Below, piece after piece: positions 12,153-26,817 of a DNA stretch of 64,000 nt. Source of the DNA: Sulfurisoma sediminicola (GTDB lineage Bacteria; Pseudomonadota; Gammaproteobacteria; Burkholderiales; Rhodocyclaceae); contig NZ_BHVV01000003.1 in assembly GCF_003865015.1 (NCBI RefSeq), positions 124,001 through 188,000 of the forward strand, written 5' to 3'. The position numbers and the translations under genes were made by a program. Numbering within the stretch: the first letter of the stretch is position 1; each line of letters begins with the position of its first letter. The notes below the pieces were generated by a model. That model was not told where the DNA came from, did not search any database, and worked only from the letters and a program-made list of their open reading frames with translations.

Positions 12153-14735
12153 TTGAGCAAGGCCAATTTCCTGAAGACTGACTGGTTCTTCGGCCTCGTC
12201 GTGAGCCTGGTCGTGCTGGGCTTTGCCGGCGGCGAACTGCTGCAGAGCCTGGAACGCAAGGCCTACGATCTCGGCATGGGGATGACCTCGCGCGCGCCGT
12301 CCGATCGCGTCGCGGTCATCGCCATTGACGAGCAGAGCCTCGCCAACATCGGCCGCTGGCCGTGGTCGCGCGACGTGATGGCGGACATGGTGGAGAAGCT
12401 CGCCGCCGCCAAGGCGAAGGTCATCGCCCCGGTGATTCTGTTCTCCGAGCCGCAGCTCGATCCGGGCCTCGCCTACATCAACAAGCTGACCGAGCTCTAT
12501 ACCCAGGCCGGCGGTCTGCCGTCGACCGCCACGCCGGAGGAACTCGCTGCGCAGAACCCGCTGCTGGCGCAGATGGCGGGGCTGCTGTTCGAGGCGGAAA
12601 AGAAACTTAACACCGATCGCCGTCTCGCCGCGGCTTTCGCGCAGGCCGGCAACGTCGTGCTGCCCATCTCCTTCCGCCTCGGCCAGCCGCAGGGTCGCCC
12701 CGACCGCGAGCTGCCTGAATTCGTCAGGAAGGACGGGATCGGCGCGCCGGCCGGCAGTGGCTTCCCGACCGTGAATGCCGATGCGCTGGTGATCGAGCCG
12801 CTGGGCAAGGTCGCCGCGGGCGTCGGCCACCTCAACGTGACGCCCGATGTCGACGGCGCGATCCGCACCGAGCCCCTGGTGCTGACTCACTTCGACCAGA
12901 CCTACCCGGCGTTGTCGCTGATGGTCGCGGCGAAAAGCCTCAACCTGAAGCCCGCCGACATCCAGGTCGTCCCGGGCGAAGCGGTCAAACTCGGGCGGCT
13001 GCGCATCGGTACCGACGGCATGGCGCGCATGATGACCTTCTACTACCAGGACAAGGCGCCGGGCCAGCCGGCCTTCGCCGTCGACTCCTTCTTCGACGTC
13101 AAGAGCGGCAAGATTCCGCTCGACAAGTACCGCGACAAGATCGTGCTCATCGGCGCCACGGCGGCGGGGGCCAGCAGCCTGTTCGTCACGCCGGTGTCGC
13201 CGGGCATGCCCTCGGTGCTGATGGAAGCGCACGCCGTATCTTCGATTCTTTCCGAACATTTCTTCGTCGCGCCGAGCTGGGGCTTCTGGGCCGAGAGCGG
13301 CGTGTTCCTGCTCGTCGCGGTCTACCTGATCGCGCTGCTGCCGCGCCTGTCGGCGGGCATGGCCGCCGGCGTCACCCTGCTGTTGCTGGCGCTGTTGATC
13401 GGTGCCCACTTCGGTCTGATGACGACCCGGCTGATGTGGCTGCAGCTGATGGTGCCGGCGACGCTGCTGCTGGTCGGCCACCTGCTGCTGACGATCAAGC
13501 GCTTCGTCGTCACCGAGCGCGGCAAGGAGAAGTCGGACCTCGAATCGGCCGAATCGAACCGCATGCTGGGCCTCGCGTTCCAGGGCCAGGGGCAGCTCGA
13601 CATGGCCTTCGACAAGTTCCGCAAGTGCCCGCTCGACGAGCAACTGATGGAGAACATGTACAACCTTGGACTCGATTTCGAGCGCAAGCGCCAGTTCAAC
13701 AAGGCCGAGGCGGTGTTCCGTTACATGGCCGGCTTCAACCCCAAGTTCAAGGATCTCGAGCAGCGCCTCAACCGCGCCAAGCAGATGTCGGAAACGGTGA
13801 TCCTCGGCGGCGCCACGGCCCATCCCGGCGGCACCATGATGATGGTCGAAGGCACCGAGAAGCCGATGCTGGGACGCTACCAGATCGAGAAGGAGCTGGG
13901 CAAGGGTGCCATGGGCGTCGTCTACCTCGGTCGCGATCCGAAGATCAACCGCGTCGTCGCCATCAAGACCATGGCGCTGTCGCAGGAGTTCGACGCGGAC
14001 GAGCTGAAGGACGTCAAGGAGCGCTTCTTCCGCGAGGCCGAGACCGCCGGCCGCCTCAACCATCCGTACATCGTGCAGATGTACGACGCCGGCGAGGAAC
14101 ACGACCTCGCCTACATCGCGATGGAGTTCCTCAAGGGCAAGGACCTGGTGCCCTTCACCAAGCCGGCCAACCTGCTGCCGCTGCCCAAGGCGATGAGCAT
14201 CGTCGCCCGCGTCGCCGAGGCGCTGTCGTACGCCCACGCCAACCAGGTCGTGCATCGCGACATCAAGCCGGCCAACTTCATGTACGAGCCGGAATCGGAC
14301 CAGGTCAAGGTCACCGACTTCGGCATCGCCCGCATCACCGACTCCTCCAAGACCAAGACCGGCATGGTCCTGGGCACGCCGAGCTACATGTCGCCCGAGC
14401 AACTGGCCGGCAAGAAGATCGACGGTCGCTCCGACCTGTTCTCGCTCGGCGTCACCCTCTACCAGATGGCCTGCGGCAAGCTGCCGTTCGAGGGCGAGTC
14501 GATGGCCCAGCTGATGTTCAAGATCACCAACGATTCCGCGCCCGACATCCGTACCATCCGGCCCGACGTGCCCGACTGCCTCGTCGCCATCATCAACCGC
14601 GCCCTGGTCAAGGACCCGGAGCAGCGCTACCAGACCGGCGGGGAAATGGCCAAGGATCTGCATGCCTGCCTCGCTCTGGTCGGCGGCGCCGGCGGTGCCT
14701 CTGCCACTGCGTCCGCCGTGGATATCGCCATCTAG
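12153..14735 (+). CDS. CHASE2-sensor serine/threonine protein kinase
   Basis: An 860-aa membrane kinase. It has an N-terminal membrane anchor (about residues 10-30), a CHASE2 extracytoplasmic sensor (about 35-390), a block of membrane helices (about 375-450), a linker with TPR-like helices, and a PknB-type kinase domain (about 574-840). The glycine loop follows RYQIEKELGKG, the ATP Lys is at 605, H-R-D at 701-703 and D-F-G at 722-724, so the kinase looks active. The start is TTG with a strong GGGGGAG site. It begins a cluster containing its likely PP2C antagonist and an FHA reader. The periplasmic signal is unknown. Confidence 0.92.
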   Translation: MSKANFLKTDWFFGLVVSLVVLGFAGGELLQSLERKAYDLGMGMTSRAPSDRVAVIAIDEQSLANIGRWPWSRDVMADMVEKLAAAKAKVIAPVILFSEPQLDPGLAYINKLTELYTQAGGLPSTATPEELAAQNPLLAQMAGLLFEAEKKLNTDRRLAAAFAQAGNVVLPISFRLGQPQGRPDRELPEFVRKDGIGAPAGSGFPTVNADALVIEPLGKVAAGVGHLNVTPDVDGAIRTEPLVLTHFDQTYPALSLMVAAKSLNLKPADIQVVPGEAVKLGRLRIGTDGMARMMTFYYQDKAPGQPAFAVDSFFDVKSGKIPLDKYRDKIVLIGATAAGASSLFVTPVSPGMPSVLMEAHAVSSILSEHFFVAPSWGFWAESGVFLLVAVYLIALLPRLSAGMAAGVTLLLLALLIGAHFGLMTTRLMWLQLMVPATLLLVGHLLLTIKRFVVTERGKEKSDLESAESNRMLGLAFQGQGQLDMAFDKFRKCPLDEQLMENMYNLGLDFERKRQFNKAEAVFRYMAGFNPKFKDLEQRLNRAKQMSETVILGGATAHPGGTMMMVEGTEKPMLGRYQIEKELGKGAMGVVYLGRDPKINRVVAIKTMALSQEFDADELKDVKERFFREAETAGRLNHPYIVQMYDAGEEHDLAYIAMEFLKGKDLVPFTKPANLLPLPKAMSIVARVAEALSYAHANQVVHRDIKPANFMYEPESDQVKVTDFGIARITDSSKTKTGMVLGTPSYMSPEQLAGKKIDGRSDLFSLGVTLYQMACGKLPFEGESMAQLMFKITNDSAPDIRTIRPDVPDCLVAIINRALVKDPEQRYQTGGEMAKDLHACLALVGGAGGASATASAVDIAI

Positions 14736-14744
14736 GCCAAGCTC

Positions 14745-15575
14745 ATGGACATCTCCCAGGCCCTCAAGATCGTCGCCCGCACCGACCCGGGGATGGTGCG
14801 TTCGCAGAACGAGGACGCGGTCTTCGCCAACCCGCAGCGCGGCTTCGTCGTGCTGGCCGACGGCATGGGCGGCTACAACGCCGGCGAGGTGGCGAGCGGC
14901 ATGGCCACGACCGTGCTCGGTACCGAACTGGACAAGGCCTTCGCCCAGCGCCCGCCGCATGAAAGAGTGGCTGGCGGCAAGCTGTGGGCGCATGCCGCAC
15001 TCGAGGCCGAGATCGCCCGCGCCAACGGCGCCATCTACCAGGCGGCGCTGAGCCAGCCGCAATACGCCGGCATGGGCACCACGCTGGTCGCGGCGGTGTT
15101 CCACGACAACAGTCTCACGGTGGCCCATATCGGCGACTCGCGGCTCTATCGACTGCGCGGCGAGGAGTTTCAGCAGATCACCCGCGACCATTCGCTGCTG
15201 CAGGAGCAGATCGACAGCGGCATGCTCACGCCGGAGGAGGCCAAGCATTCGCAGAACAAGAATCTGGTGACCCGCGCGCTCGGCGTCGATCCGACGGTCG
15301 AACCCGAGATCCGCGACTACGAGGTCCGGGTCGGCGACGTCTACCTGCTCTGTTCCGACGGACTCAACGACATGGTCGATGACGGCGAGATCGGCATGAC
15401 GCTTTCCGCGCTGGCGGCCAACCTCGAGCTCTGTGCCACGCAATTGATCCAGATGGCCAACGACAACGGCGGCCGCGACAACGTATCGGTGATTCTCGTC
15501 AAGGTGGCCGGGGACTTCGGCGTGCCGCGCGGGATAGCTTCCTGGTTGGCGCGGTTGCTGGCATGGTTAAAATGA
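14745..15575 (+). CDS. PP2C-type (PPM) serine/threonine protein phosphatase
   Basis: A 276-aa soluble phosphatase with the PPM signature: RSQNEDAVF near residue 20, ADGMGGYNAGEVAS at about 39-52, HIGDSRLYRLRG, LCSDGLND and GGRDNVSVILV. The metal-binding Asp residues are in place. It starts 9 bases after the kinase stop codon, so it is almost certainly co-expressed and expected to reverse kinase phosphorylation. A hydrophobic tail (about residues 262-276, WLARLLAWLK) might give a weak membrane contact. Confidence 0.94.
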   Translation: MDISQALKIVARTDPGMVRSQNEDAVFANPQRGFVVLADGMGGYNAGEVASGMATTVLGTELDKAFAQRPPHERVAGGKLWAHAALEAEIARANGAIYQAALSQPQYAGMGTTLVAAVFHDNSLTVAHIGDSRLYRLRGEEFQQITRDHSLLQEQIDSGMLTPEEAKHSQNKNLVTRALGVDPTVEPEIRDYEVRVGDVYLLCSDGLNDMVDDGEIGMTLSALAANLELCATQLIQMANDNGGRDNVSVILVKVAGDFGVPRGIASWLARLLAWLK

Positions 15576-15598: not shown

Positions 15599-16369
15599 AT
15601 GACTGACAAGGCGAAACTCATACTCAGCATGGATGGCCTGGTGCTCAAGGAAATTCAGCTCAGCAAGGAGCGGATGACCATCGGGCGCAAGGCGCACAAC
15701 GACATCCAGATCGACAATCTCGCCATCTCCGGCGAGCATGCCGTCATTGTCACCATGCTCAACGACTCCTTCCTCGAAGACCTCGGCAGCACCAACGGCA
15801 CCTTCGTCAATGGCCAATCGGTGAAGAAGCACTTCCTGCAGAACGGGGACACCATCGAGCTCGGCAAATACCGCCTCAAGTACATCAACGAGGTGGCGCA
15901 CCAGGCACCGGCGGCCGACTTCGAGAAGACTATGATCATGCGCCCGGGGATGATGGGCAAGGCTGCGGAGCACCCGGCTCCGAAGGGCGCGGGCGACACC
16001 CAGGTCGGCATGGCGGAGGCGCATCCGCCGACGGCACCGGCCGTCGCATCCGCCGCAGCCGCAGCAGCCGCCGCCACGGTTGTGCCGGTAGCTCAGCCAT
16101 CACTGCCGCTCGGCTCGATCCAGGTTCTTTCCGGCGCCAATGCCGGCAAGGAGCTCGAACTGACCAAGACCCTGACGACGCTGGGCAAGCCCGGCGTGCA
16201 GGTGGCGGTGATCGCCCGCCGGCCGCAGGGCTATTTCATCACCCATGTCGAAGGCGCAAACTTCCCCATCGTCGACGGCAAGGCCATCGGCGTCGAAGCC
16301 CACAAGCTCCAGGACAACGACGTGGTCGAACTGGCCGGGGTCAAGATGCAGTTCTTCATCAAGACCTGA
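15599..16369 (+). CDS. FHA-domain protein (two FHA-like halves)
   Basis: A 256-aa cytoplasmic protein. The N-terminal FHA domain (about residues 20-95) keeps the phosphothreonine-binding core TIGRKAHNDIQID, SGEH and the LGSTNGTFVNG loop. An Ala/Pro-rich linker (about 120-165) leads to a second beta-rich half (about 167-256) that resembles a degenerate FHA repeat without the Ser-x-x-His core. It probably reads threonine phosphorylation made by the neighbouring kinase. Position between the phosphatase and cyclase suggests it bridges the two parts of the cluster. Confidence 0.9.
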   Translation: MTDKAKLILSMDGLVLKEIQLSKERMTIGRKAHNDIQIDNLAISGEHAVIVTMLNDSFLEDLGSTNGTFVNGQSVKKHFLQNGDTIELGKYRLKYINEVAHQAPAADFEKTMIMRPGMMGKAAEHPAPKGAGDTQVGMAEAHPPTAPAVASAAAAAAAATVVPVAQPSLPLGSIQVLSGANAGKELELTKTLTTLGKPGVQVAVIARRPQGYFITHVEGANFPIVDGKAIGVEAHKLQDNDVVELAGVKMQFFIKT

Positions 16370-16420: not shown

Positions 16421-18652
16421 ATGTCCCCGATGAAACAGAATCTGCCCCGCTTCCTGCTCGGATTGCTGGTGCTGGCCGTGCTGCTCGGCCACGCGGCCGG
16501 CATCTATCGCATCGGCGTCATCGAGCACTTCGACGCGATCATCTACGACACCAAGGTGCGGCTGACCATGCCGCGCAATGTCGACGACCGCTTGGTCATC
16601 CTCGACATCGACGAGAAAGCCCTGGCCGAGGTCGGGCGCTGGCCATGGAATCGCGAGCGCATGGCGACGCTGATGAACAAGCTGTTCGACCGCAACGGCA
16701 TCGCGCTGCTCGGATTCGACATCGTCTTTGCCGAACGCGATGCCAGTTCCGGCCTGCCGGTGCTGGAGTCGCTGGCGAAGAAGGACGGGCGCGAGGCGGC
16801 CGCGATTCAGGGGGTGCTGAAGGAACTGCGGCCGACGCTGGACTACGATGCGCTTTTCGCCGCGTCGCTGAAGAAGCGTGCCATCGTCCTCGGTTACTAC
16901 CTCTCGAGCAAGGAGGGCGGCACCAGCTCCGGCGCCTTGCCGCCGCCGACCCTGCCGGCGGGAACGTTCGCCGGACGCAACATCGCCTTCACCAGCTGGA
17001 CGAACTACGGGGGCAACCTGCCGGAGTTCCAGAAGAATGCCGCCAGCGGTGGCCACTTCAACCCGCTGGTGGACTTCGATGGCATGTCGCGCCGGGTGCC
17101 GGTGCTGGCCGAATACAACGGTGCGTACTACGAGTCATTGTCGCTGGCGATGGTGCGGGCGCTGCTCGGTTTCCCGCCGGTCGTGCCGGGCTATGCCGAG
17201 GGTAGCGACAAGAGCTATGCCGGCCTCGAATGGCTGGAATTGCCGACCGCGCGCGGTACGCTGCGCGTCCCGGTCGACGCCAACGTCGCGGCCTTGGTCC
17301 CCTACCGCGGCTTCCAGGGCAGCTACCGGTACATTTCAGCGGCCGATGTGCTCGCCGATCGCATTCCCGCCGAGCAGCTGCAGGGCAAGATCGTGCTGAT
17401 GGGCACCACGGCGCCCGGCCTGATGGACCTGCGCGCCACGCCGGTCGGTGCAACCTACCCCGGCGTCGAGGTCCACGCCAACCTGATCTCGGGCATGCTC
17501 GATGGCGCCGTCAAGTACCGTCCGGCCTATGTGCTTGGCGCCGATGTCGTGCTGGTACTGCTCGCCGGTGCGGTGATGACTTTCCTGCTGCCCCTGCTTT
17601 CGCCCTTCCGCGCCAGCATCGTCGCCCTGATCGTGCTGCTGTTCTTGCTCTCGGTGAACCTTGCCTTCTGGCACGTCGGCAACATGGTCCTGCCGCTGGC
17701 CACCGGCCTGCTGCTGGTGATGCTGCTCTACGCATTGAACATGTCCTGGGGCTATTTCGTCGAATCGAAGGCCAAGCGCCAGTTCACCGAGCTGTTCGGC
17801 CAGTATGTGCCGCCCGAACTGGTCGACGAGATGGCGAAGAACCCCGAGGGTTACACCATGGACGGCCGCAAGGCCGAACTGACGGTGCTGTTCTCCGACA
17901 TTCGCGGCTTCACGACGATCTCGGAAGGGCTGCAGCCGGACCAGTTGGCGACCCTGATGAACCTCTACCTCGGTTCGATGACCGAGGTCATCCGCAAGCG
18001 CCGCGGCACGCTCGACAAGTACATCGGCGACGCCATCATGGCTTTCTGGGGTGCGCCGGTGGGCGACGCCGAACATGCCAGGAACGCCGTGATCACGGCG
18101 ATGGAAATGCAGCGGGCGCTGCACGACCTCAATCCCGAGTTGCTGGCCAAGGGTTGGCCCGAACTGAAGATCGGCGTCGGCGTCAACACCGGCACCATGA
18201 CCGTCGGCGACATGGGCTCGCCGGTGCGCAAGGCCTACACGGTGATGGGCGACGCGGTGAACCTCGGCTCCCGGCTGGAAGGCATCACCAAGCAGTACGG
18301 CGTCGGCATCATCGTCGGCGAGGGTACCCGCGAGCTGACCAAGAAAGACTTCGTCTATCGCGAGCTCGACCGGGTGCGGGTCAAGGGCAAGGCCGAGCCG
18401 GTCGGCATCTACGAGCCGCTCGGTCTCGAGGGCCAGGTTGCCAAGGAGGATCTGGAGGAACTCAAGCTGTGGAACCAGGCCCTGCGGGCCTATCGTTCCC
18501 AGGACTGGGACCAGGCCGAGGTCATGCTGCTCAACCTGTCGCGCATCCACCAGTGTTACCTGTATGATCTCTACGCCAAGCGTGTCGCCCATTGCCGCAA
18601 GGAGCCCCCGGGCGAGGGCTGGGACGGCGTGACGACATTCGAGACCAAGTGA
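16421..18652 (+). CDS. CHASE2-domain class III adenylate/guanylate cyclase
   Basis: A 743-aa membrane cyclase. It has a signal anchor (about residues 8-30), CHASE2 sensor (about 35-340), three hydrophobic helices (about 367-445) and a class III cyclase catalytic domain (about 475-650). The metal-binding residues are present at F-S-D-I (Asp493) and in YIGDAIMAFWGAP (Asp537). A helical C-terminal extension of about 70 residues follows. It makes cAMP or possibly cGMP. The adjacent phosphodiesterase-like and cyclic-nucleotide-binding genes suggest a local circuit. Starts at 16421 and 16430 are both possible. Confidence 0.92.
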   Translation: MSPMKQNLPRFLLGLLVLAVLLGHAAGIYRIGVIEHFDAIIYDTKVRLTMPRNVDDRLVILDIDEKALAEVGRWPWNRERMATLMNKLFDRNGIALLGFDIVFAERDASSGLPVLESLAKKDGREAAAIQGVLKELRPTLDYDALFAASLKKRAIVLGYYLSSKEGGTSSGALPPPTLPAGTFAGRNIAFTSWTNYGGNLPEFQKNAASGGHFNPLVDFDGMSRRVPVLAEYNGAYYESLSLAMVRALLGFPPVVPGYAEGSDKSYAGLEWLELPTARGTLRVPVDANVAALVPYRGFQGSYRYISAADVLADRIPAEQLQGKIVLMGTTAPGLMDLRATPVGATYPGVEVHANLISGMLDGAVKYRPAYVLGADVVLVLLAGAVMTFLLPLLSPFRASIVALIVLLFLLSVNLAFWHVGNMVLPLATGLLLVMLLYALNMSWGYFVESKAKRQFTELFGQYVPPELVDEMAKNPEGYTMDGRKAELTVLFSDIRGFTTISEGLQPDQLATLMNLYLGSMTEVIRKRRGTLDKYIGDAIMAFWGAPVGDAEHARNAVITAMEMQRALHDLNPELLAKGWPELKIGVGVNTGTMTVGDMGSPVRKAYTVMGDAVNLGSRLEGITKQYGVGIIVGEGTRELTKKDFVYRELDRVRVKGKAEPVGIYEPLGLEGQVAKEDLEELKLWNQALRAYRSQDWDQAEVMLLNLSRIHQCYLYDLYAKRVAHCRKEPPGEGWDGVTTFETK

Positions 18653-18688: not shown

Positions 18689-19456
18689 ATGAAGGTTCGC
18701 ATCCTGGGCTGCAGCGGCGGCATCGGCGGCCGCCACCTGCGCACGACCTCGATACTGGTCGACAACGACATCCTGATCGACGCCGGCACCGGCGTTGCCG
18801 ACCTGTCGATCGCCGAGCTGGCGCAGATCGACCATGTGTTCCTGACCCACAGCCACCTGGACCACATCGCCAGCCTGCCGCTGCTGATCGACACCGTCGG
18901 CGACATGCGCAACCGGCCGCTGACGGTGCATGCGACTGACGCCACCATCGAAATCATGCGGGCCCACATCTTCAACTGGGCGATATGGCCGGATTTCTGC
19001 GAGATTCCGAATCCGACGAAGCCCTTCATGCGCTACGAGAACCTGGCGATGGGCGAGACGGTCGATCTCGAGGGGCGCCGCATCACTGCCCTGCCGGCCA
19101 ATCACACCGTTCCCGCCGTGGGCTACCAGCTCGATTCGGGGACTGCCAGCCTGGCTTTTTCGGGCGACACCGGTCCCTGTCCGGAACTCTGGGCCGCCGT
19201 CAACAAGATCGACAACCTGCGCCACCTGATCATCGAAACCGCCTTCTCCAATCGCGAGCGGCGGCTGGCGATGACCTCCAAGCACCTGTGCCCCAGCATG
19301 CTGGTCGAGGAACTGGCCTATCTGCAGCGTGACGTCGAGATCTACATCACCCATCTCAAGCCGGGACAGATCGAACTGACCATGCAGGAGATCGAGGACG
19401 GCGTGGGCGAGCTGCGTCCGCGCATGCTGCAGAACAATCAGGTGTTCGAACTCTAG
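18689..19456 (+). CDS. Metallo-beta-lactamase-fold phosphodiesterase (class II cNMP PDE-like)
   Basis: A 255-aa soluble MBL-fold hydrolase. The metal motif THSHLDH is at about residues 53-59, followed by NHTVPAVGY, the FSGDTGP Asp block and ITHLKPGQIE, so all metal-ligand positions look intact. The layout resembles class II 3-prime,5-prime-cyclic-nucleotide phosphodiesterases. Its place directly between the cyclase and a cyclic-nucleotide-binding protein supports cNMP hydrolysis. That substrate is inferred from context. Confidence 0.85.
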   Translation: MKVRILGCSGGIGGRHLRTTSILVDNDILIDAGTGVADLSIAELAQIDHVFLTHSHLDHIASLPLLIDTVGDMRNRPLTVHATDATIEIMRAHIFNWAIWPDFCEIPNPTKPFMRYENLAMGETVDLEGRRITALPANHTVPAVGYQLDSGTASLAFSGDTGPCPELWAAVNKIDNLRHLIIETAFSNRERRLAMTSKHLCPSMLVEELAYLQRDVEIYITHLKPGQIELTMQEIEDGVGELRPRMLQNNQVFEL

Positions 19457-19465
19457 GTCCGGCGG

Positions 19466-20554
19466 ATGGGTGCGAACAGCAGCGACACTGTCGTTCCGAC
19501 CCTTGCCCGGCTGCAGCCGCTGGCGGCCCTCGGCGCCGACAGCCTGCGTGGGCTGGCACCGCATTGCCATCGCGAACGGGTGACGCGCAACCTCGACCCG
19601 TTCCAGTTGCGCGACTGGCAGGGCCAGGTGGTCTACCTGGTCAAGGGCGAACTCAAGCTGGAATTCGATGACGGCGCGATCCAGGTCATCGTCGGCGGCT
19701 GGGGCGACGCCCTCTTTCCCATCGGCCGCGGGCGGCTGGTGCCGGTAGCGACCAAGGCGATCACCGATGTGGAAATGCTGCGTTTCGACGAAGATCTCGT
19801 CGACATCATGATGACGTGGGACCAGATCGCCGCTTCCGGCCAGCAAGTCGCCGAAGGCGAGGCTGCCAACTGGCGCACCATGTCCGGCATGTTCACGGTG
19901 CAGAGCCTGACGCAGGGCGTGTTCGCGTCGATGCCGCCGGCCAACATCGAGCGTCTGCTGGGTCGTTTTCAGCGCATCCCGGTCAAGCGCAGCCAGCAGA
20001 TCATCCGCCAGGGCGACCCCGGCGACTACTACTACCTGATCGAACGCGGCCGCTGCACGGTCACGCGCGAAGTGGCGGGCGCCCGCGTCGAGCTGGCCGA
20101 ATTGCGCGCGGGCGATTCCTTCGGCGAGGAGGCGCTCGTTGCCGACACGGTGCGCAATGCGACGGTGGCGATGAGGACCGATGGCGTGCTGTTGCGCCTG
20201 GACAAGGCCGACTTCATGGAGTTGTTGCGCGAGCCGTTGCTGCAACGGCTGTCGCCGACAGAGGCGCAGCAGCGAATTGCTGCCGGCGCCCAATGGATCG
20301 ACGTACGCTTCCCGGCCGAGTACAAGTGCGATGGCCTGGCCGGCGCCATCAATGTTCCGGTCAACGAGATCCGCCAAGCCGCCGCCGGACTCGATCCGTC
20401 CAGGGAGTACATCGTCTATTGCCAGACCGGGCGGCGCAGTTCTGCCGCCGCCTTCCTGCTGTCACAGCGCAGCCTGCATGCCCATCTGCTCGAAGGCGGC
20501 CTCAAAGCGCTGCTTGCCAGCGGCACAAGCACTTCCAACAAGGGTTTGACATGA
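19466..20554 (+). CDS. Cyclic-nucleotide-binding protein fused to a rhodanese domain
   Basis: A 362-aa cytoplasmic protein. The N-terminal third resembles a degenerate cNMP-binding barrel (about residues 10-130). It is followed by a clearer CNB domain (about 150-260, with GDPGDYYYLIERG and the ELRAGDSFGEEALV phosphate-binding cassette) and a C-terminal rhodanese domain (about 262-355) with active-site Cys319 in YCQTGRRSS. The rhodanese may carry sulfane sulfur or act as a redox sensor. The gene lies 9 bases after the phosphodiesterase gene and overlaps the next start as ATGA. Confidence 0.9.
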   Translation: MGANSSDTVVPTLARLQPLAALGADSLRGLAPHCHRERVTRNLDPFQLRDWQGQVVYLVKGELKLEFDDGAIQVIVGGWGDALFPIGRGRLVPVATKAITDVEMLRFDEDLVDIMMTWDQIAASGQQVAEGEAANWRTMSGMFTVQSLTQGVFASMPPANIERLLGRFQRIPVKRSQQIIRQGDPGDYYYLIERGRCTVTREVAGARVELAELRAGDSFGEEALVADTVRNATVAMRTDGVLLRLDKADFMELLREPLLQRLSPTEAQQRIAAGAQWIDVRFPAEYKCDGLAGAINVPVNEIRQAAAGLDPSREYIVYCQTGRRSSAAAFLLSQRSLHAHLLEGGLKALLASGTSTSNKGLT

Positions 20555-22932
20555 GCACCACAATGTCCTCGCCACAGGATCCGGGCGGCCTCTCCGATGT
20601 CGGCAGCCGCCTGGCCTTCTTCAAGAACCTGCAGACCGTCACCAACAAGATCCACGCGACGTCGAACGTCGACGAGATCATGCTGGAGCTGTCGCAGGAC
20701 GTCTGCAGCCTGTTCAATGCCGATCGCCTGACCATCTATTCCATCGGCGAGGACAAGGCCTCGATCGTTTCCAAGGTCAAGACCGGCCTCAATTCCTTCA
20801 AGGACCTGAAGCTGCCGATCGCCGACCAGAGCATCGCCGGGCACGTCGCGCTGGCGCGCAAGATCGTCAACATTCGCGACGTCTATGACGACGGCGAGCT
20901 CAAGGCGATCCACCCGCAATTGCGCTTCCTGCAGGAAGTGGACAAACGCACCGGTTACCGCACCAAGCAGATGCTGGTGGCGCCGATCGTCGATCTCCAG
21001 AACGGCGAACTCATGGGCGTCGCCCAGATCATCAACAACAAGGCCGGCGTGCCCTTCGCCGCGGTGGCCGAGGAAGGCATCAAGGGCCTCTGCGAAACGC
21101 TGGCGATCGCCTTCAGCCAGCGCAACAAGCCGGCGCAGGTGGCCAAGTCCAAGTACGACCATCTGGTGCTGGATGCGATCATCGCCGCGCCGGAACTCGA
21201 ACTGGCGACCCGCACGGCGCGGCGCAAGAACGTAGACGTCGAGGAGATTCTCATCACCGAGATGCAGGTGCAGCCCGACAAGATCGGCGCCGCGCTGTCC
21301 AAGTTCTTCGGCGTACCCTACGAGCCGTTCCGCAATGACCGCATCAAGCCCGTGGATCTGATGAAGAACCTGCGGCGCGAGTATGTCGAGCAGAACCAGT
21401 GGCTTCCGGTCGAGGAGACTTCCGAAGGGATCATGGTGTTGTGCATGGATCCCGAGCAGGTCAAGGGTTCTCGCGTCGTCAACAACGTTTTCTCCCGCGC
21501 CAAGATCGCCTACCGCGTGACCACCATCCGCGAGTTCAGGCAGACGATGGATCTCTTCTTCGGCGGCGGCGGGGCGACGCCGTTTACCGACGACACATCG
21601 GTCGGCGACCTCCTGTCAACGCTGGATCAGGGTGAAGAGTCGGGCGAGGGCCTCGCCGAGGACGTCTCCGCCGCAGCGGACAACGAACTGGTCAAACTGG
21701 TGAACAAGGTGATCGTCGACGCCTATCAGCAGGGCGCCTCCGACATCCACATCGAGCCCGGCATCGGCAAGGACAAGGTCTCGATCCGCTTCCGCAAGGA
21801 CGGCTCGCTCGCCAAGTACATCGAGATTCCCGCCAGTTACCGCGCCGCCATCGCCGCCCGCCTCAAGATCATGTGCGACCTCGATATCGCCGAGCGGCGC
21901 AAGCCGCAGGACGGCAAGATCAAGTTCAAGAAGTTCGGCCCGCTCGACATCGAGCTGCGCGTTGCCACCATCCCGACTACCGGCGGCGTCGAGGACATCG
22001 TGATGCGCATCCTGGCGGGCGGCGAGCCGATTCCGATCGACAAGCTCGGCGTGCTGCCGATCAACCTGACCAAGCTCAAGGAATGCATCTCCAAGCCCTA
22101 TGGCCTGTTCTTCGTCTGTGGCCCGACCGGCTCGGGCAAGACGACGACGCTGCACTCGGTGCTCGGCTTCCTCAACACGCCCGACACCAAGATCTGGACC
22201 GCGGAAGACCCGGTCGAAATCACCCAGAAGGGCCTGCGCCAGGTGCAGGTCAACAAGAAGGCCGGACTGGACTTCCCCATGGTGATGAAGGCCTTCCTTC
22301 GTGCCGATCCGGACATCATCATGGTCGGCGAGATGCGCGACGCCGAAACCACCGGCATCGGCATCGAGGCCTCGCTCACCGGCCACCTCGTGTTCGCCAC
22401 GTTGCACACCAACAGCGCGCCGGAATCCATCATCCGCCTGCTCGACATGGGCATGGATCCCTTCAACTTTTCCGATGCCCTGCTCGGCATCCTGGCCCAG
22501 CGCCTGGCCAAGCGCCTGTGCAAGTGCAAGGAGTTCTACTCGCCGGATGCCGACGAAGTGCGGTTGTTCATGACCGAATACTGCTCCGAGCTGGTGAATA
22601 CGGACAACTTCAAGAAGGACCAGCGGGCGGCCATGGAGGCGACCTACCAGCGACTGGTCAAGGATTACGGCAAGGACGGCAAGCTGCAGTTTCCCCGGGC
22701 CAAGGGCTGCGACACTTGCGGCGGGTCCGGCTACAAGGGCCGGGTCGGCTTGCACGAGCTGATGGTCGGCACCGAACCGACGAAGAAGCTGATACAGGAG
22801 CACGCCAGGGTGTCGCAGCTCTTCGCCCAGGCGCTGCAGGACGGCATGCTGACGCTGAAAATGGACGGGATGGAAAAGGTGTTGCAGGGCGTCACCGATC
22901 TCAAGCAGGTGCGCGCAGTCTGCATCAAATGA
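20551..22932 (+). CDS. GAF-domain PilB/GspE-type secretion ATPase
   Basis: A 793-aa protein. It has an N-terminal GAF domain (about residues 20-190), a GspE/PilB N-domain related to MshEN modules (about 200-330) and a type II/IV secretion ATPase domain. Walker A GPTGSGKTT is at 524-532, followed by the VGEMRDAET Walker B and TLHTNSAPE histidine box. Cys pairs in the LCKCKEF and CDTCGGSGYKGR segments form the usual zinc site. Such ATPases power pilus extension or type II secretion. The GAF fusion and the signalling operon suggest a ligand-controlled motor. The ATG overlaps the upstream stop. Confidence 0.92.
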   Translation: MSTTMSSPQDPGGLSDVGSRLAFFKNLQTVTNKIHATSNVDEIMLELSQDVCSLFNADRLTIYSIGEDKASIVSKVKTGLNSFKDLKLPIADQSIAGHVALARKIVNIRDVYDDGELKAIHPQLRFLQEVDKRTGYRTKQMLVAPIVDLQNGELMGVAQIINNKAGVPFAAVAEEGIKGLCETLAIAFSQRNKPAQVAKSKYDHLVLDAIIAAPELELATRTARRKNVDVEEILITEMQVQPDKIGAALSKFFGVPYEPFRNDRIKPVDLMKNLRREYVEQNQWLPVEETSEGIMVLCMDPEQVKGSRVVNNVFSRAKIAYRVTTIREFRQTMDLFFGGGGATPFTDDTSVGDLLSTLDQGEESGEGLAEDVSAAADNELVKLVNKVIVDAYQQGASDIHIEPGIGKDKVSIRFRKDGSLAKYIEIPASYRAAIAARLKIMCDLDIAERRKPQDGKIKFKKFGPLDIELRVATIPTTGGVEDIVMRILAGGEPIPIDKLGVLPINLTKLKECISKPYGLFFVCGPTGSGKTTTLHSVLGFLNTPDTKIWTAEDPVEITQKGLRQVQVNKKAGLDFPMVMKAFLRADPDIIMVGEMRDAETTGIGIEASLTGHLVFATLHTNSAPESIIRLLDMGMDPFNFSDALLGILAQRLAKRLCKCKEFYSPDADEVRLFMTEYCSELVNTDNFKKDQRAAMEATYQRLVKDYGKDGKLQFPRAKGCDTCGGSGYKGRVGLHELMVGTEPTKKLIQEHARVSQLFAQALQDGMLTLKMDGMEKVLQGVTDLKQVRAVCIK

Positions 22933-23100
22933 CAATGCGGCCCGCTCCCCCCGGCCCCCTCTCGCGAGGGGGAGCCTGCGTCCTCGTTGTGCTCAACTGT
23001 CACGGGGCACTTCGTGCTGGTGCCGGGACGGATTGCGGCTTCGCCGCGTGCCGTCCGGCCTTGGGGCGGCCCTGCGGCCGGACTGTACCGCGAGGTTGAG
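22933..23100 (+). other. 168-bp spacer with two GC stem-loops inside the signalling cluster
   Basis: CCCCCTC (22955-22961) pairs with GAGGGGG (22966-22972). A second set of GCGGC/GCCGC hairpins lies at about 23034-23095. There is no T-run, so these may attenuate or stabilise the mRNA rather than terminate it. No gene is seen here. Confidence 0.4.
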
Positions 23101-24720
23101 ATGGATTCGGTCGAAGACCTGTTCCGCCGACTCGAGCAGCTCAACGCCATTGGCGCCGCTCTCTCCAAGGAGCGCGACATCAATCGGCTGCTCGAGAACA
23201 TCCTGGTCGCCGCCAAGACCATCACCCACGCCGACGGCGGCACGCTCTACCGCATTACCGAAGACGGCCAGGCGCTGCGCTTCGAGATCGTGCGCACGGA
23301 TTCGCTGAACATCGCGCTGGGCGGTACGACCGGCAAGCCGATCACATTTCCCGATCTGCCCCTCCACGACGAGGCGGGCAAACCGAACAATTTCCTCGTC
23401 GCCGCCTACGCCGCTCTCCACGACGCGACGGTGAATGTCGCCGACGCCTACACCGAGGCGGGGTTCGATTTCTCCGGTACCCGCAAGTTCGACCAGCGCA
23501 CCGGCTATCGCTCGCAGTCGTTCCTGACGGTGCCGCTGAAGAACCACGAGAACGAGATCATCGGCGTTCTCCAGCTCATCAATGCCATACACCAGGAGAG
23601 CGGCAAGGTCGTACCGTTCTCCGCCGCCGACCAGCGCCTGGCCGAATCGCTCGCCTCGCAGGCGGCGATCGCGCTGACCAACCGCCAGTTGATCTCCCAG
23701 CTGGAAACCCTGTTCGAATCCTTCATCAACCTCATCAACCTCGCCATCGACGAGAAGTCGCCCTACACGGGCGGGCACTGCCAGCGCGTGCCCGAACTGA
23801 CGATGATGATCGCCGAGGCCGTCAATGCCACCACCGACGGCCCGCTGGCGGACTTCCAGATGACCGACAAGGACCGCTACGAGCTGAAGATCGCGGGCAT
23901 GTTGCATGATTGCGGCAAGGTCACCACGCCGGTGCATGTCGTCGACAAGGCCACCAAGCTGCAGACGCTGTTCGATCGCATCTATCTGGTCGATACCCGT
24001 TTCGAGGTGCTCAAGCGCGATGCCGAGATCGATGCGCTGCGCCAGCAACTGGCCCTGCGTGAAAGGCGCGATACCGCCGCCGAGGAGGCGATCCGCGGCC
24101 GTTACCAGGCGGAACTGACCGCGTTGCAGGATGAACGCGAATTCCTGCGCAAGTCGAATGTCGGCGTCGAAGCCATGTCCGAGGCCGATCAGCAGCGCGT
24201 GCGCGACATCGGCCGGCAACACAAGTGGCGCAACGTCGAAGGCGTCGAGGCGGATTTCCTCACCGCCGACGAGATCGAGAACCTCAGCATTCGCGCCGGC
24301 ACGCTGACGCAGAAGGAGCGCGAGATCATCAATTACCACATCGTCGCGACGATCAAGATGCTCGAACAGCTGCCTTGGCCCAAGCACCTGCAGAACGTGC
24401 CCGAGTACGCCGGCGGCCATCATGAGCGCATGGACGGCAAGGGCTACCCGAAGGGACTGACGCGCGAGCAGATGTCGCTGCAGGCACGGATGATGGGCAT
24501 CGCAGACATTTTCGAGGCACTGACCGCGCGCGACCGGCCGTACAAGCACGGCATGAAGCTGTCGCAGGCGATGTCCATCATGGAGAATTTCAGGAAGAAC
24601 GGGCACATCGATCCCGACTTGTTCGATGTCTTCGTGCGCCAGGGCGTCTTCGGCAAGTACGCGGCACGCTTTCTCGATGGCGCACAGATCGATATGGCGG
24701 ATGTCGCCACACCCGATTGA
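23101..24720 (+). CDS. GAF domain HD-GYP phosphodiesterase with a long insertion
   Basis: A 539-aa protein. The GAF domain (about residues 10-205) precedes an HD-GYP domain, the family that degrades c-di-GMP. The H-D pair is at 269-270 (MLHDCGK), and HHERMDGKGYP carries G-Y-P at 448-450. In ordinary HD-GYP domains these two motifs lie about 65 residues apart; here they are about 180 apart, with an inserted charged, coiled-coil-like helix (about 305-360). The metal residues look intact. The start at 23101 has AGGTTGAG before it. It is probably the c-di-GMP arm of the cluster. Confidence 0.9.
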   Translation: MDSVEDLFRRLEQLNAIGAALSKERDINRLLENILVAAKTITHADGGTLYRITEDGQALRFEIVRTDSLNIALGGTTGKPITFPDLPLHDEAGKPNNFLVAAYAALHDATVNVADAYTEAGFDFSGTRKFDQRTGYRSQSFLTVPLKNHENEIIGVLQLINAIHQESGKVVPFSAADQRLAESLASQAAIALTNRQLISQLETLFESFINLINLAIDEKSPYTGGHCQRVPELTMMIAEAVNATTDGPLADFQMTDKDRYELKIAGMLHDCGKVTTPVHVVDKATKLQTLFDRIYLVDTRFEVLKRDAEIDALRQQLALRERRDTAAEEAIRGRYQAELTALQDEREFLRKSNVGVEAMSEADQQRVRDIGRQHKWRNVEGVEADFLTADEIENLSIRAGTLTQKEREIINYHIVATIKMLEQLPWPKHLQNVPEYAGGHHERMDGKGYPKGLTREQMSLQARMMGIADIFEALTARDRPYKHGMKLSQAMSIMENFRKNGHIDPDLFDVFVRQGVFGKYAARFLDGAQIDMADVATPD

Positions 24721-24780
24721 GCGAAAAGGTCGGCGCTGCCACCACGGCGACGGGCGCTGCCGCAGTCTGTGGGGCGTGAG

Positions 24781-26817
24781 ATGAAGCACCGGGGTGCCAC
24801 GGATCCAGATGTCGCCGCGATCCTTTCCCATATGGCCAGGGGCGATCTGGCCGCCCTTGACGCACCCGCGACGCGACTGCTGAAACGGGATCGGGCGCAT
24901 CCGGTCGGCATCAAGGCGCGATCGGCGTTCCTCATCGGCCAAGGCAAGCAGCGCGATGCGCTGCTCCTGCTGCGGCAGGGCACCGCCCATCACCCGGGTG
25001 ATGCCGAGATGTGGAACAACCTCGGCATCGTGCTGTCCGACCTCGGGCGTCACGACGAGGCCATCGAACAGTTCAGGCGTGCCCTGCGCATCGCGCCGGG
25101 CCAGGCCGACCCCCTCGCCAATCTCGCCAACGCCCTGCTGAAGCGCGGCATGCTCGAGGAAGCGATCGCGGCGGCGCGGCAGGCGGCTGCGACAGACCCC
25201 GGGCATCCGCAGGCGTTCAATACCCTCGGGGCCGCGCTGCTGCGCGCCGGCGAGAAGGAAACGGCGCTCGAGGCGTTTTCGGTGGCGGTGGGCAACAGCC
25301 CGGAGTCGCTACAGGTGTTCACCAATTTCATCACCGCTTTGCTGGAACTGCGACGCTTCGCCGATGCCGTTCATTGCATGCGCCCGGCGCTGGACAACAG
25401 CGACGCCGAACCCGGCGAGCGCGACCTGCTGCTGCCGCTGATGTTTCGCGCGCAGAGGGCGATCTGCGACTGGACCGCGGACGAGGCACTGCCCGCCGTC
25501 CTGACGGGCCTGGTGGGGCGTGGCGTCGAGCCGGGACCGGAACCGTTCTTTTTGACGCACGTGGAGGACATCAGCCCGGCAACGCAGCGACGCTGCGCCG
25601 AGAATTACGGCCGGGCCTATCTGGCGAACGTCTTCGGCGGGGCCTTGCCGCGGCCGCTTTGCGATAACTCAGCAGACGCCGGCGTGGCGGCGACACGTCC
25701 CTTGCGCGTCGGCTTTCTCTCGGCCGATTTTCGCGCCCATGCGGTGAGCGAACTCGCGGTCGGGGTCTTCGAGGCCTTCGATCGTGCGGCCTTCAGCGTC
25801 TACGGCTACGCCTACGGAACCGACGATCCGGGCCCGCTGCGCCAGCGACTGAAGAATGCCTTCGACGTGTTCCGCGACATCGACCACCTCTCGTTCGCCG
25901 ACGCCGCGCGGGCGATATTCGATGACGGCATCGACGTGCTCGTCGACATGGCGGGTTGGACCAGCCAGTCCCGCATGGCCATCACGGCCTATCGCCCTGC
26001 GCCCGTCATCGCGCACTGGCTGGGATTCCCAGGTACGCTGGGATTGTCGGGTTGCGTCGACTACCTGATATCGGACACCTGGGTCACGCCCCCCGAACGT
26101 GCCGCGGACTACACGGAACGGCTGGCCCTGCTGCCGCACAGCTACCAGCCAAGCAGCCGGGTGGAGTCACCGCGGCCCCGGCCCGTTCGCGCGGAAGCAG
26201 GCCTGCCGGAGGAAGCCTTCGTCTTCGCCTCCTTCAATCAGAGCACGAAGATCACGCCGCAGGTCTTCCGCCTGTGGTGCGAGTTGTTGCGACGGCATCC
26301 TGCCGCGCTGCTCTGGATCGGCTTTCAGGACGAGTCGGCGCAGGAAAGCCTGCGCCGCGAAGCGGCGGCCCAGGGCATCACCGCCGCGCGCATCGTCTTC
26401 GCTCCCTGGGCGCCGCTGGAACGGCATTGGGACCGGCTCGGCCTCGCCGATCTTGCCCTGGATACCTTCCCCTATGGGGGCCACACCACGGCAAGCGACA
26501 TGCTCTGGGCCGGGGTGCCCTTGGTCGCATGGGCCGGGCCCACCTTCGCCAGTCGGGTGGCCGCCGGCCTGGTGCGGGCGGTCGGGCTGCCGGAACTGGT
26601 GGTCGGCTCGGCGGAGGAATATCTGGCCCTGGCGGACGGGTTGGCGAAATCGCCCGATCGCCTGGCCGAACTGCGGGAAAGACTGCAGGGCGCACGTTCC
26701 AACAGCGCCTTGTTCGATACCCGGCGTTTCGCCAGGGACTTCGAGCGTTTGCTGCGGGCGATGTGGAATGCCCGTCGCGATCGGTCGGCTGCCCCGATCA
26801 GCGTGGGCGGCTATTGA
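24781..26817 (+). CDS. TPR-repeat O-GlcNAc-transferase-like (SPINDLY/GT41) glycosyltransferase
   Basis: A 678-aa cytoplasmic protein. TPR repeats (about residues 40-190, for example NNLGIVLSDLGRHDEAIEQF) are followed by a GT41 catalytic region (about 300-665) with RVGFLSADFRAHAV, the AHWLGFPGTLG block, FASFNQSTKITP and LDTFPYGGHTTASDMLWAGVPLV. Bacterial members transfer sugars to protein side chains. Its place between a pilus-motor-like signalling cluster and the pilin gene makes pilin or pilus glycosylation an attractive guess, but no substrate is shown. A GTG at 24769 is the alternative start. Confidence 0.9.
   Translation: MKHRGATDPDVAAILSHMARGDLAALDAPATRLLKRDRAHPVGIKARSAFLIGQGKQRDALLLLRQGTAHHPGDAEMWNNLGIVLSDLGRHDEAIEQFRRALRIAPGQADPLANLANALLKRGMLEEAIAAARQAAATDPGHPQAFNTLGAALLRAGEKETALEAFSVAVGNSPESLQVFTNFITALLELRRFADAVHCMRPALDNSDAEPGERDLLLPLMFRAQRAICDWTADEALPAVLTGLVGRGVEPGPEPFFLTHVEDISPATQRRCAENYGRAYLANVFGGALPRPLCDNSADAGVAATRPLRVGFLSADFRAHAVSELAVGVFEAFDRAAFSVYGYAYGTDDPGPLRQRLKNAFDVFRDIDHLSFADAARAIFDDGIDVLVDMAGWTSQSRMAITAYRPAPVIAHWLGFPGTLGLSGCVDYLISDTWVTPPERAADYTERLALLPHSYQPSSRVESPRPRPVRAEAGLPEEAFVFASFNQSTKITPQVFRLWCELLRRHPAALLWIGFQDESAQESLRREAAAQGITAARIVFAPWAPLERHWDRLGLADLALDTFPYGGHTTASDMLWAGVPLVAWAGPTFASRVAAGLVRAVGLPELVVGSAEEYLALADGLAKSPDRLAELRERLQGARSNSALFDTRRFARDFERLLRAMWNARRDRSAAPISVGGY

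Follow-up and report, generated by a model that had tools for sequence, protein, structure and literature searches.

The window, the whole stretch of 64,000 nucleotides, contains a run of genes extending from a protein kinase to a c-di-GMP phosphodiesterase, all on one strand and separated by short gaps or overlaps. Within it lies a gene for an extension-type ATPase of the domain order GAF-MshEN-T2SSE, referred to here as the GAF-ATPase. The features are, in order:

12153..14735, + strand: CHASE2 Ser/Thr protein kinase with intact HRDIKPAN and DFG motifs
14745..15575, + strand: PP2C phosphatase of the Stp1/IreP type, above the NCBIfam cut-off
15599..16369, + strand: FHA-domain protein
16421..18652, + strand: CHASE2 class III nucleotide cyclase, catalytic residues of the K-T (adenylate) type, best PDB matches bacterial adenylate cyclases
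18689..19456, + strand: metallo-beta-lactamase (MBL)-fold protein, HSHLDH motif, matching the class II cAMP phosphodiesterase family
19466..20554, + strand: cyclic-nucleotide-binding (CNB) and rhodanese protein, phosphate-binding cassette FGEEAL..RNATV
20551..22932, + strand: GAF-ATPase, 793 aa
20668..21111, + strand: GAF domain of the GAF-ATPase, cyclic-nucleotide type, residues 40-187; pocket residues R59, T61, D131 and T134
21307..21573, + strand: MshEN-like N1 domain of the GAF-ATPase, lacking the c-di-GMP motif, residues 253-341
21676..22911, + strand: T2SSE motor core of the GAF-ATPase, residues 376-787, with Walker A and B, Asp and His boxes and Cys pairs
23101..24720, + strand: GAF-HD-GYP c-di-GMP phosphodiesterase, probable ATG at 23101; the ORF opens at 22987 with TTG

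The GAF-ATPase ORF is complete from ATG to stop, and a 4-base overlap joins its start codon to the stop codon of the gene before it. Domain searches recover the neighbours that had been named in the sequence-only reading of this DNA: the gene upstream encodes a cNMP-binding/rhodanese protein, the one downstream a GAF-HD-GYP protein. The description of the protein as a complete motor ATPase fused to an N-terminal GAF sensor is likewise borne out. In Pfam searches, the T2SSE core scores 367.8 bits, the GAF domain scores 36.3 bits against a cut-off of 22.4, and the MshEN region passes weakly (27.0 bits against 23.1). Walker A (GPTGSGKTTT, residues 524-533), the Walker B region (DPDIIMVGEMRD, residues 586-597) and the His box (HLVFATLHTNSAPES) are all present, together with Cys pairs at 657/659 and 720/723. 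Most of the Walker A and B, Asp box, His box and Cys-pair positions are invariant in 45 betaproteobacterial orthologues, which share 66-82% identity with the window protein, and in these invariant columns the GAF-ATPase has the motor features of the PilB class (Walker A and B, Asp and His boxes, zinc Cys pairs). Both zinc Cys pairs that had been read from the sequence exist, although the first is C-K-C (22519-22527; residues 657 and 659), one residue short of the C-x-K-C found in the majority.

A motif search of the N-terminal part of the protein did not find the RLGxxLVxxG-type c-di-GMP motif of MshEN domains. This speaks against c-di-GMP gating through the MshEN region, and leaves the earlier hint of gating via this domain unsupported. 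In a full-length structure model the motor core is poor, with a pLDDT below 50 over much of residues 440-650; this part of the model is unreliable, and hence only the GAF and N1 domains of it were used.

Class assignment of the motor

The GAF-ATPase scores far below the NCBIfam cut-offs of the three families to which it might have been assigned: 470.9 bits against 675.65 for PilB (TIGR02538), 407.8 against 630.25 for GspE (TIGR02533) and 382.8 against 850 for TfpB (NF053534). A tree of 87 motor cores, with SH-aLRT support values, agrees with these scores. The betaproteobacterial GAF-ATPases form one group (support of 100), which joins a DUF4388-fused sister group and the GAF-ATPases of a gammaproteobacterial family and another class in a clade (support of 99) apart from PilB, TfpB, GspE and Msh-like ATPases. 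PilB occupies one side of a branch (support of 93) that excludes the GAF-ATPase, the outcome on which the sequence-only reading had been staked beforehand; owing to long branches, the deeper branching order is unsure. Score and tree together rule out both an ordinary PilB that has been relocated and a GspE or Msh-type identity. When the GAF-MshEN part was used as the query, it was found in 41 of 399 genomes of the phylum.

Comparison with these better known motors reveals both common and distinguishing features. The GAF-ATPase shares its T2SSE motor core and N1 domain with PilB, and probably also its platform partner, PilC, but differs in its extra GAF domain, its separate clade and its position outside the pilBCD operon. 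TfpB, which in Acinetobacter baylyi serves as a second motor for T4P extension, is PilB-like and likewise encoded away from pilC (NF053534; PMC8213720); it nevertheless belongs to a clade separate from the GAF-ATPase, and the TfpB of the window genome has no GAF domain. The DUF4388-MshEN-T2SSE ATPases of the sister clade, with 50-59% core identity, have DUF4388 or no recognised N-terminal domain in place of the GAF, and are encoded outside the signalling operon. With the MshE and MshEN ATPases gated by c-di-GMP, the shared principle would be second-messenger gating through an N-terminal domain; the difference is that the window N1 domain is without RLGxxLVxxG and the sensor is instead the GAF. 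Within the sister clade (L138-L146), the MshEN match is stronger, and several members have an intact RLGxxLVxxG-like motif.

The GAF sensor and its signalling operon

All 19 PDB sequence matches to the GAF domain are to CyaB2, to enzymes of the PDE2/5/6/10 type or to one HD-GYP protein. The structure model of the domain (mean pLDDT of 75.7) has cyclic-nucleotide GAFs and an HD-GYP-linked GAF as its top fold matches, with the GAFs of phytochrome and PtsP further down. Fold and nearest relatives therefore both place the domain in the cyclic-nucleotide class. The contacts of CyaB2 with cAMP are Arg291, Thr293, Asp356, Asn359 and Ile308 (PMC4411481). These positions align to R59, T61, D131, T134 and V76 of the GAF-ATPase, such that the first four give the window domain ligand-contact residues like those of CyaB2 GAFb. 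Among the aligned sequences, R59 and D131 are each conserved in 113/113, position 61 holds either T or S in 113/113, and position 134 holds T, S or N in 112/113. The R-x-T position occurs in other GAFs too, and hence D131, T134 and Q159 weigh more.

The NKFDE motif, a hallmark of cyclic-nucleotide GAFs, is less uniform. It is incomplete in the betaproteobacterial members, which keep N162, F169 and E174 and have the changes of K to N and D to A together, while in 13 distant members the N, K, F and D are retained almost throughout. In PDE2, alanine changes in NKFDE abolish cGMP binding (PMC11977230); the joint loss of K and D in the betaproteobacterial sequences could be compensated, or could reflect an altered affinity. 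The tandem GAFs of the Anabaena adenylate cyclase CyaB2 (1YKD) and those of PDE2/5/6/10 provide the best sequence matches and near-best fold matches, with the cAMP contacts conserved. The GAF-ATPase differs from these enzymes in that its output is a pilus-type motor, its GAF is single and its NKFDE is only partly kept.

The genes flanking the GAF-ATPase form one conserved signalling operon, which had gone unnoticed in the sequence-only reading. The catalytic motifs of the kinase, cyclase, MBL protein and HD-GYP enzyme read as intact. Inspection by eye identifies the two metal-binding Asp residues, the Lys-Thr purine pair and the Asn-Arg pair of a class III cyclase (motifs FSDIRGF, KYIGDAI and YTVMGDAVNLGSRL). 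The CNB domain of the CNB-rhodanese protein matches those of PKG and PKA and keeps the phosphate-binding cassette, and the GAF of the neighbouring HD-GYP protein also matches cyclic-nucleotide GAFs. Conservation was counted over the 42 loci from Betaproteobacteria whose 10 kb flanks are complete: within 10 kb of the GAF-ATPase, the cyclase is present in 37/42, the HD-GYP gene in 36/42, the MBL gene in 35/42, PP2C and FHA genes in 33/42, the kinase in 30/42 and the CNB-rhodanese gene in 13/42. In several loci of another class of the phylum, homologues with approximately 40% identity have a CHASE2 cyclase gene, a GAF-HD-GYP gene or both as neighbours, in a different order and often on the opposite strand. 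The maintenance of this link to the cyclase and HD-GYP gene through rearrangement argues for function. The link is missing from the gammaproteobacterial homologues.

Other gene arrangements are also observed in this class. An 886-residue fusion of response regulator, MBL and CNB domains is encoded near one GAF-ATPase, with genes for a histidine kinase and CheD (L203:4176-6836), and an ORF of the same length lies in a similar neighbourhood in another genome (L204:12645-15305), the likeness being one of length and neighbours. In two genomes, a second GAF-MshEN protein is encoded beside the GAF-ATPase (L200:2417-3739 and L201:2394-3695); the copy at L200, of 440 aa and with no ATPase core, could be a regulatory subunit or a decoy.

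A cyclase gene beside the GAF-ATPase was not found in the gammaproteobacterial members or in some of the betaproteobacterial ones. Two gammaproteobacterial genomes have no CHASE2 protein, and the same is essentially true of genome G027, from the family of the window genome. The gammaproteobacterial GAF-ATPases at G165:C4:3680749 and G417:C1:408035 lie beside ribosomal protein genes, as seen in G165. With neither a nearby cyclase nor any CHASE2 protein in these two genomes, any ligand must come from elsewhere. The persistence of homologues where no CHASE2 cyclase is found, and the incomplete NKFDE in the window's lineage, would both fit a T4aP extension motor whose GAF binds some other small molecule, or serves assembly or contact with the kinase, FHA or HD-GYP protein. 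This is nevertheless unlikely, given that the domain matches cyclic-nucleotide GAFs almost exclusively, that its pocket residues are nearly invariant, and that the genes linked to it encode a cyclase, a CNB protein and an enzyme resembling a phosphodiesterase. Gating of the GAF by a cyclic nucleotide is favoured with reasonable confidence by these sequence comparisons, and cAMP is the likely ligand because the cyclase is co-encoded. Of the direct small-molecule gating that had been proposed, it is therefore the GAF route that is well supported, as the protein does not group with PilB and the region both scores and folds as a GAF; the MshEN route is unsupported, its motif being absent.

Loss of pilB and the pairing of motors with platforms

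The window genome (2.995 Mb in 8 contigs, 99.99% complete) encodes three other extension-type ATPases (C4:72483, C3:84033 and C3:318772) and three of the PilT type; its TfpB is at C4:71772-73667. As had been claimed, the GAF-ATPase is encoded away from pilus and T2SS operons: no such gene is present among the window genes examined, and the nearest loci on the same contig are at C3:82-88 kb, approximately 36 kb ahead of the window, and at C3:317-324 kb, approximately 130 kb beyond its end. The gene also lacks the adjacency to pilC that characterises pilB, as pilC maps to a different contig (C1:339172). Relatives that have PilB show the gene order ffh-ccsA-CorC-pilB-pilC-pilD. In the pilC-pilD operon of the window genome pilB is gone, with approximately 160 bp between CorC and pilC (L048 8014-8173; G000:C1 ~339013-339172), whereas L265, L267 and L268 carry pilB at this otherwise empty site. 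This pilC without pilB, also overlooked in the earlier reading, is the probable partner of the GAF-ATPase.

Across the family, the PilC of T4aP is found in 143/151 genomes. PilB is present in 108 of these 143, and is next to pilC in 105 of the 108; three of the 108 are under the NCBIfam cut-off but have PilB adjoining PilC, and two of these three are placed with PilB in the tree. The GAF-ATPase is present in all 35 of the PilC genomes from which PilB is absent, compared with 68 of the 108 that have it (Fisher p = 2e-6), a value that ignores shared descent and overstates the case, since the 35 genomes are related members of 17 genera and the number of loss events is far smaller than 35. The three family genomes with neither PilB nor the GAF-ATPase are also without PilC. 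TfpB, or a fragment of it, is present in 33 of the 35 pilB-less genomes, the exceptions being G002 (83% complete) and G027 (99% complete).

Extension-type ATPases were matched with T2SSF platform genes in four genomes, leaving aside short PilT-type and other secretion ATPases: G027; G252, a 100% complete genome in a single contig from a different family of the order; and the gammaproteobacteria G165 and G417. In each, every other extension-type ATPase has a T2SSF neighbour and the GAF-ATPase alone is without one; conversely, the single T2SSF gene without an ATPase neighbour is pilC, which is followed by pilD. As the other platforms each have a neighbouring ATPase, PilC is the only one that is free. 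PilQ is over its cut-off in all four genomes, and their orphan PilC proteins, along with those of three genomes of another class, form one clade with PilB-adjacent PilC (100/99). The T4aP assignment draws its strongest support from this pairing of motors and platforms in well-assembled genomes, and the match of orphan motor to orphan platform is the one observation that points to a physical partnership between the GAF-ATPase and PilC. On this basis, the GAF-ATPase is probably a T4aP extension motor.

TfpB as the sole replacement for PilB is insufficient: every PilC genome without PilB has the GAF-ATPase, and an unpaired TfpB is missing from two family genomes as well as from G252, G165 and G417. 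A different role for the GAF-ATPase would be that of an auxiliary or regulatory ATPase, which modulates TfpB or PilB, for instance by competing for the platform, and does not itself drive assembly. Its co-occurrence with PilB in the 68 family genomes, the TfpB found in most pilB-less genomes, including that of the window, and the precedent of two-motor systems (PMC8213720) are consistent with such a role. It is nonetheless improbable, as the catalytic core is fully conserved and the four genomes used for the bookkeeping keep PilC and PilQ with neither a pilC-linked PilB nor another unpaired extension-type ATPase. That the protein instead powers a filament or secretion system encoded elsewhere would agree with the lack of a link to pilus genes at any locus examined, the gammaproteobacterial homologues having only ribosomal protein genes and aconitase beside them, but is highly improbable with PilC the only free platform in the four best-assembled test genomes.

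TfpB can extend pili in Acinetobacter, where PilB and TfpB share the pilus (PMC8213720). Since the window genome also has an unpaired TfpB, the GAF-ATPase may have a second motor beside it there, the two serving one pilus in the manner of the Acinetobacter pair.

Proposed cyclic-nucleotide control of pilus extension

A review of PilB control describes cAMP as acting on type IV pili via gene expression and c-di-GMP as binding the N1 domain of the motor, and makes no mention of GAF domains (PMC11656802). The Pil-Chp/CyaB/Vfr system of Pseudomonas aeruginosa likewise places type IV pili under the control of cAMP, but does so at the level of transcription through Vfr (PMC11656802), whereas cAMP is predicted to act on the GAF-ATPase motor itself. 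No report of a GAF-fused or cAMP-binding pilus motor was found in the literature searched.

The reading that is narrowly preferred overall is that the GAF-ATPase is a T4aP extension motor, replacing or partnering PilB, that is gated by cAMP. It would work on the genome's PilC platform as the extension (assembly) ATPase, with the co-encoded CHASE2 cyclase making cAMP, the most likely ligand, and the MBL-fold phosphodiesterase removing it. Binding of the cyclic nucleotide to the N-terminal GAF would couple the signal directly to pilus extension, whether by activation or by inhibition. This signal would also be received by the GAF-HD-GYP enzyme, thereby lowering c-di-GMP, and by the CNB-rhodanese protein. 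The broader proposal is finely balanced: that these proteins are a third class of T4aP extension ATPase, which stands in for PilB in several lineages, is switched through the binding of cAMP to its own GAF, and is encoded with a cyclase, phosphodiesterase, kinase and phosphatase as a unit also tuning c-di-GMP via the GAF-HD-GYP protein. If true, cAMP would be able to influence pilus extension post-translationally, by way of a cyclic-nucleotide sensor carried on the motor, and the GAF-ATPase would explain how many Betaproteobacteria retain a type IVa pilus without PilB; in some relatives, it would be the only motor left for the pilus.

The CHASE2 kinase, PP2C phosphatase and FHA protein may represent a phosphorylation arm of the same unit. 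Directly after the operon (24769-26817) is a gene encoding TPRs and a glycosyltransferase of family 41 (O-GlcNAc transferase-like), which near the locus in some relatives has only distant homologues, with 27-39% identity.
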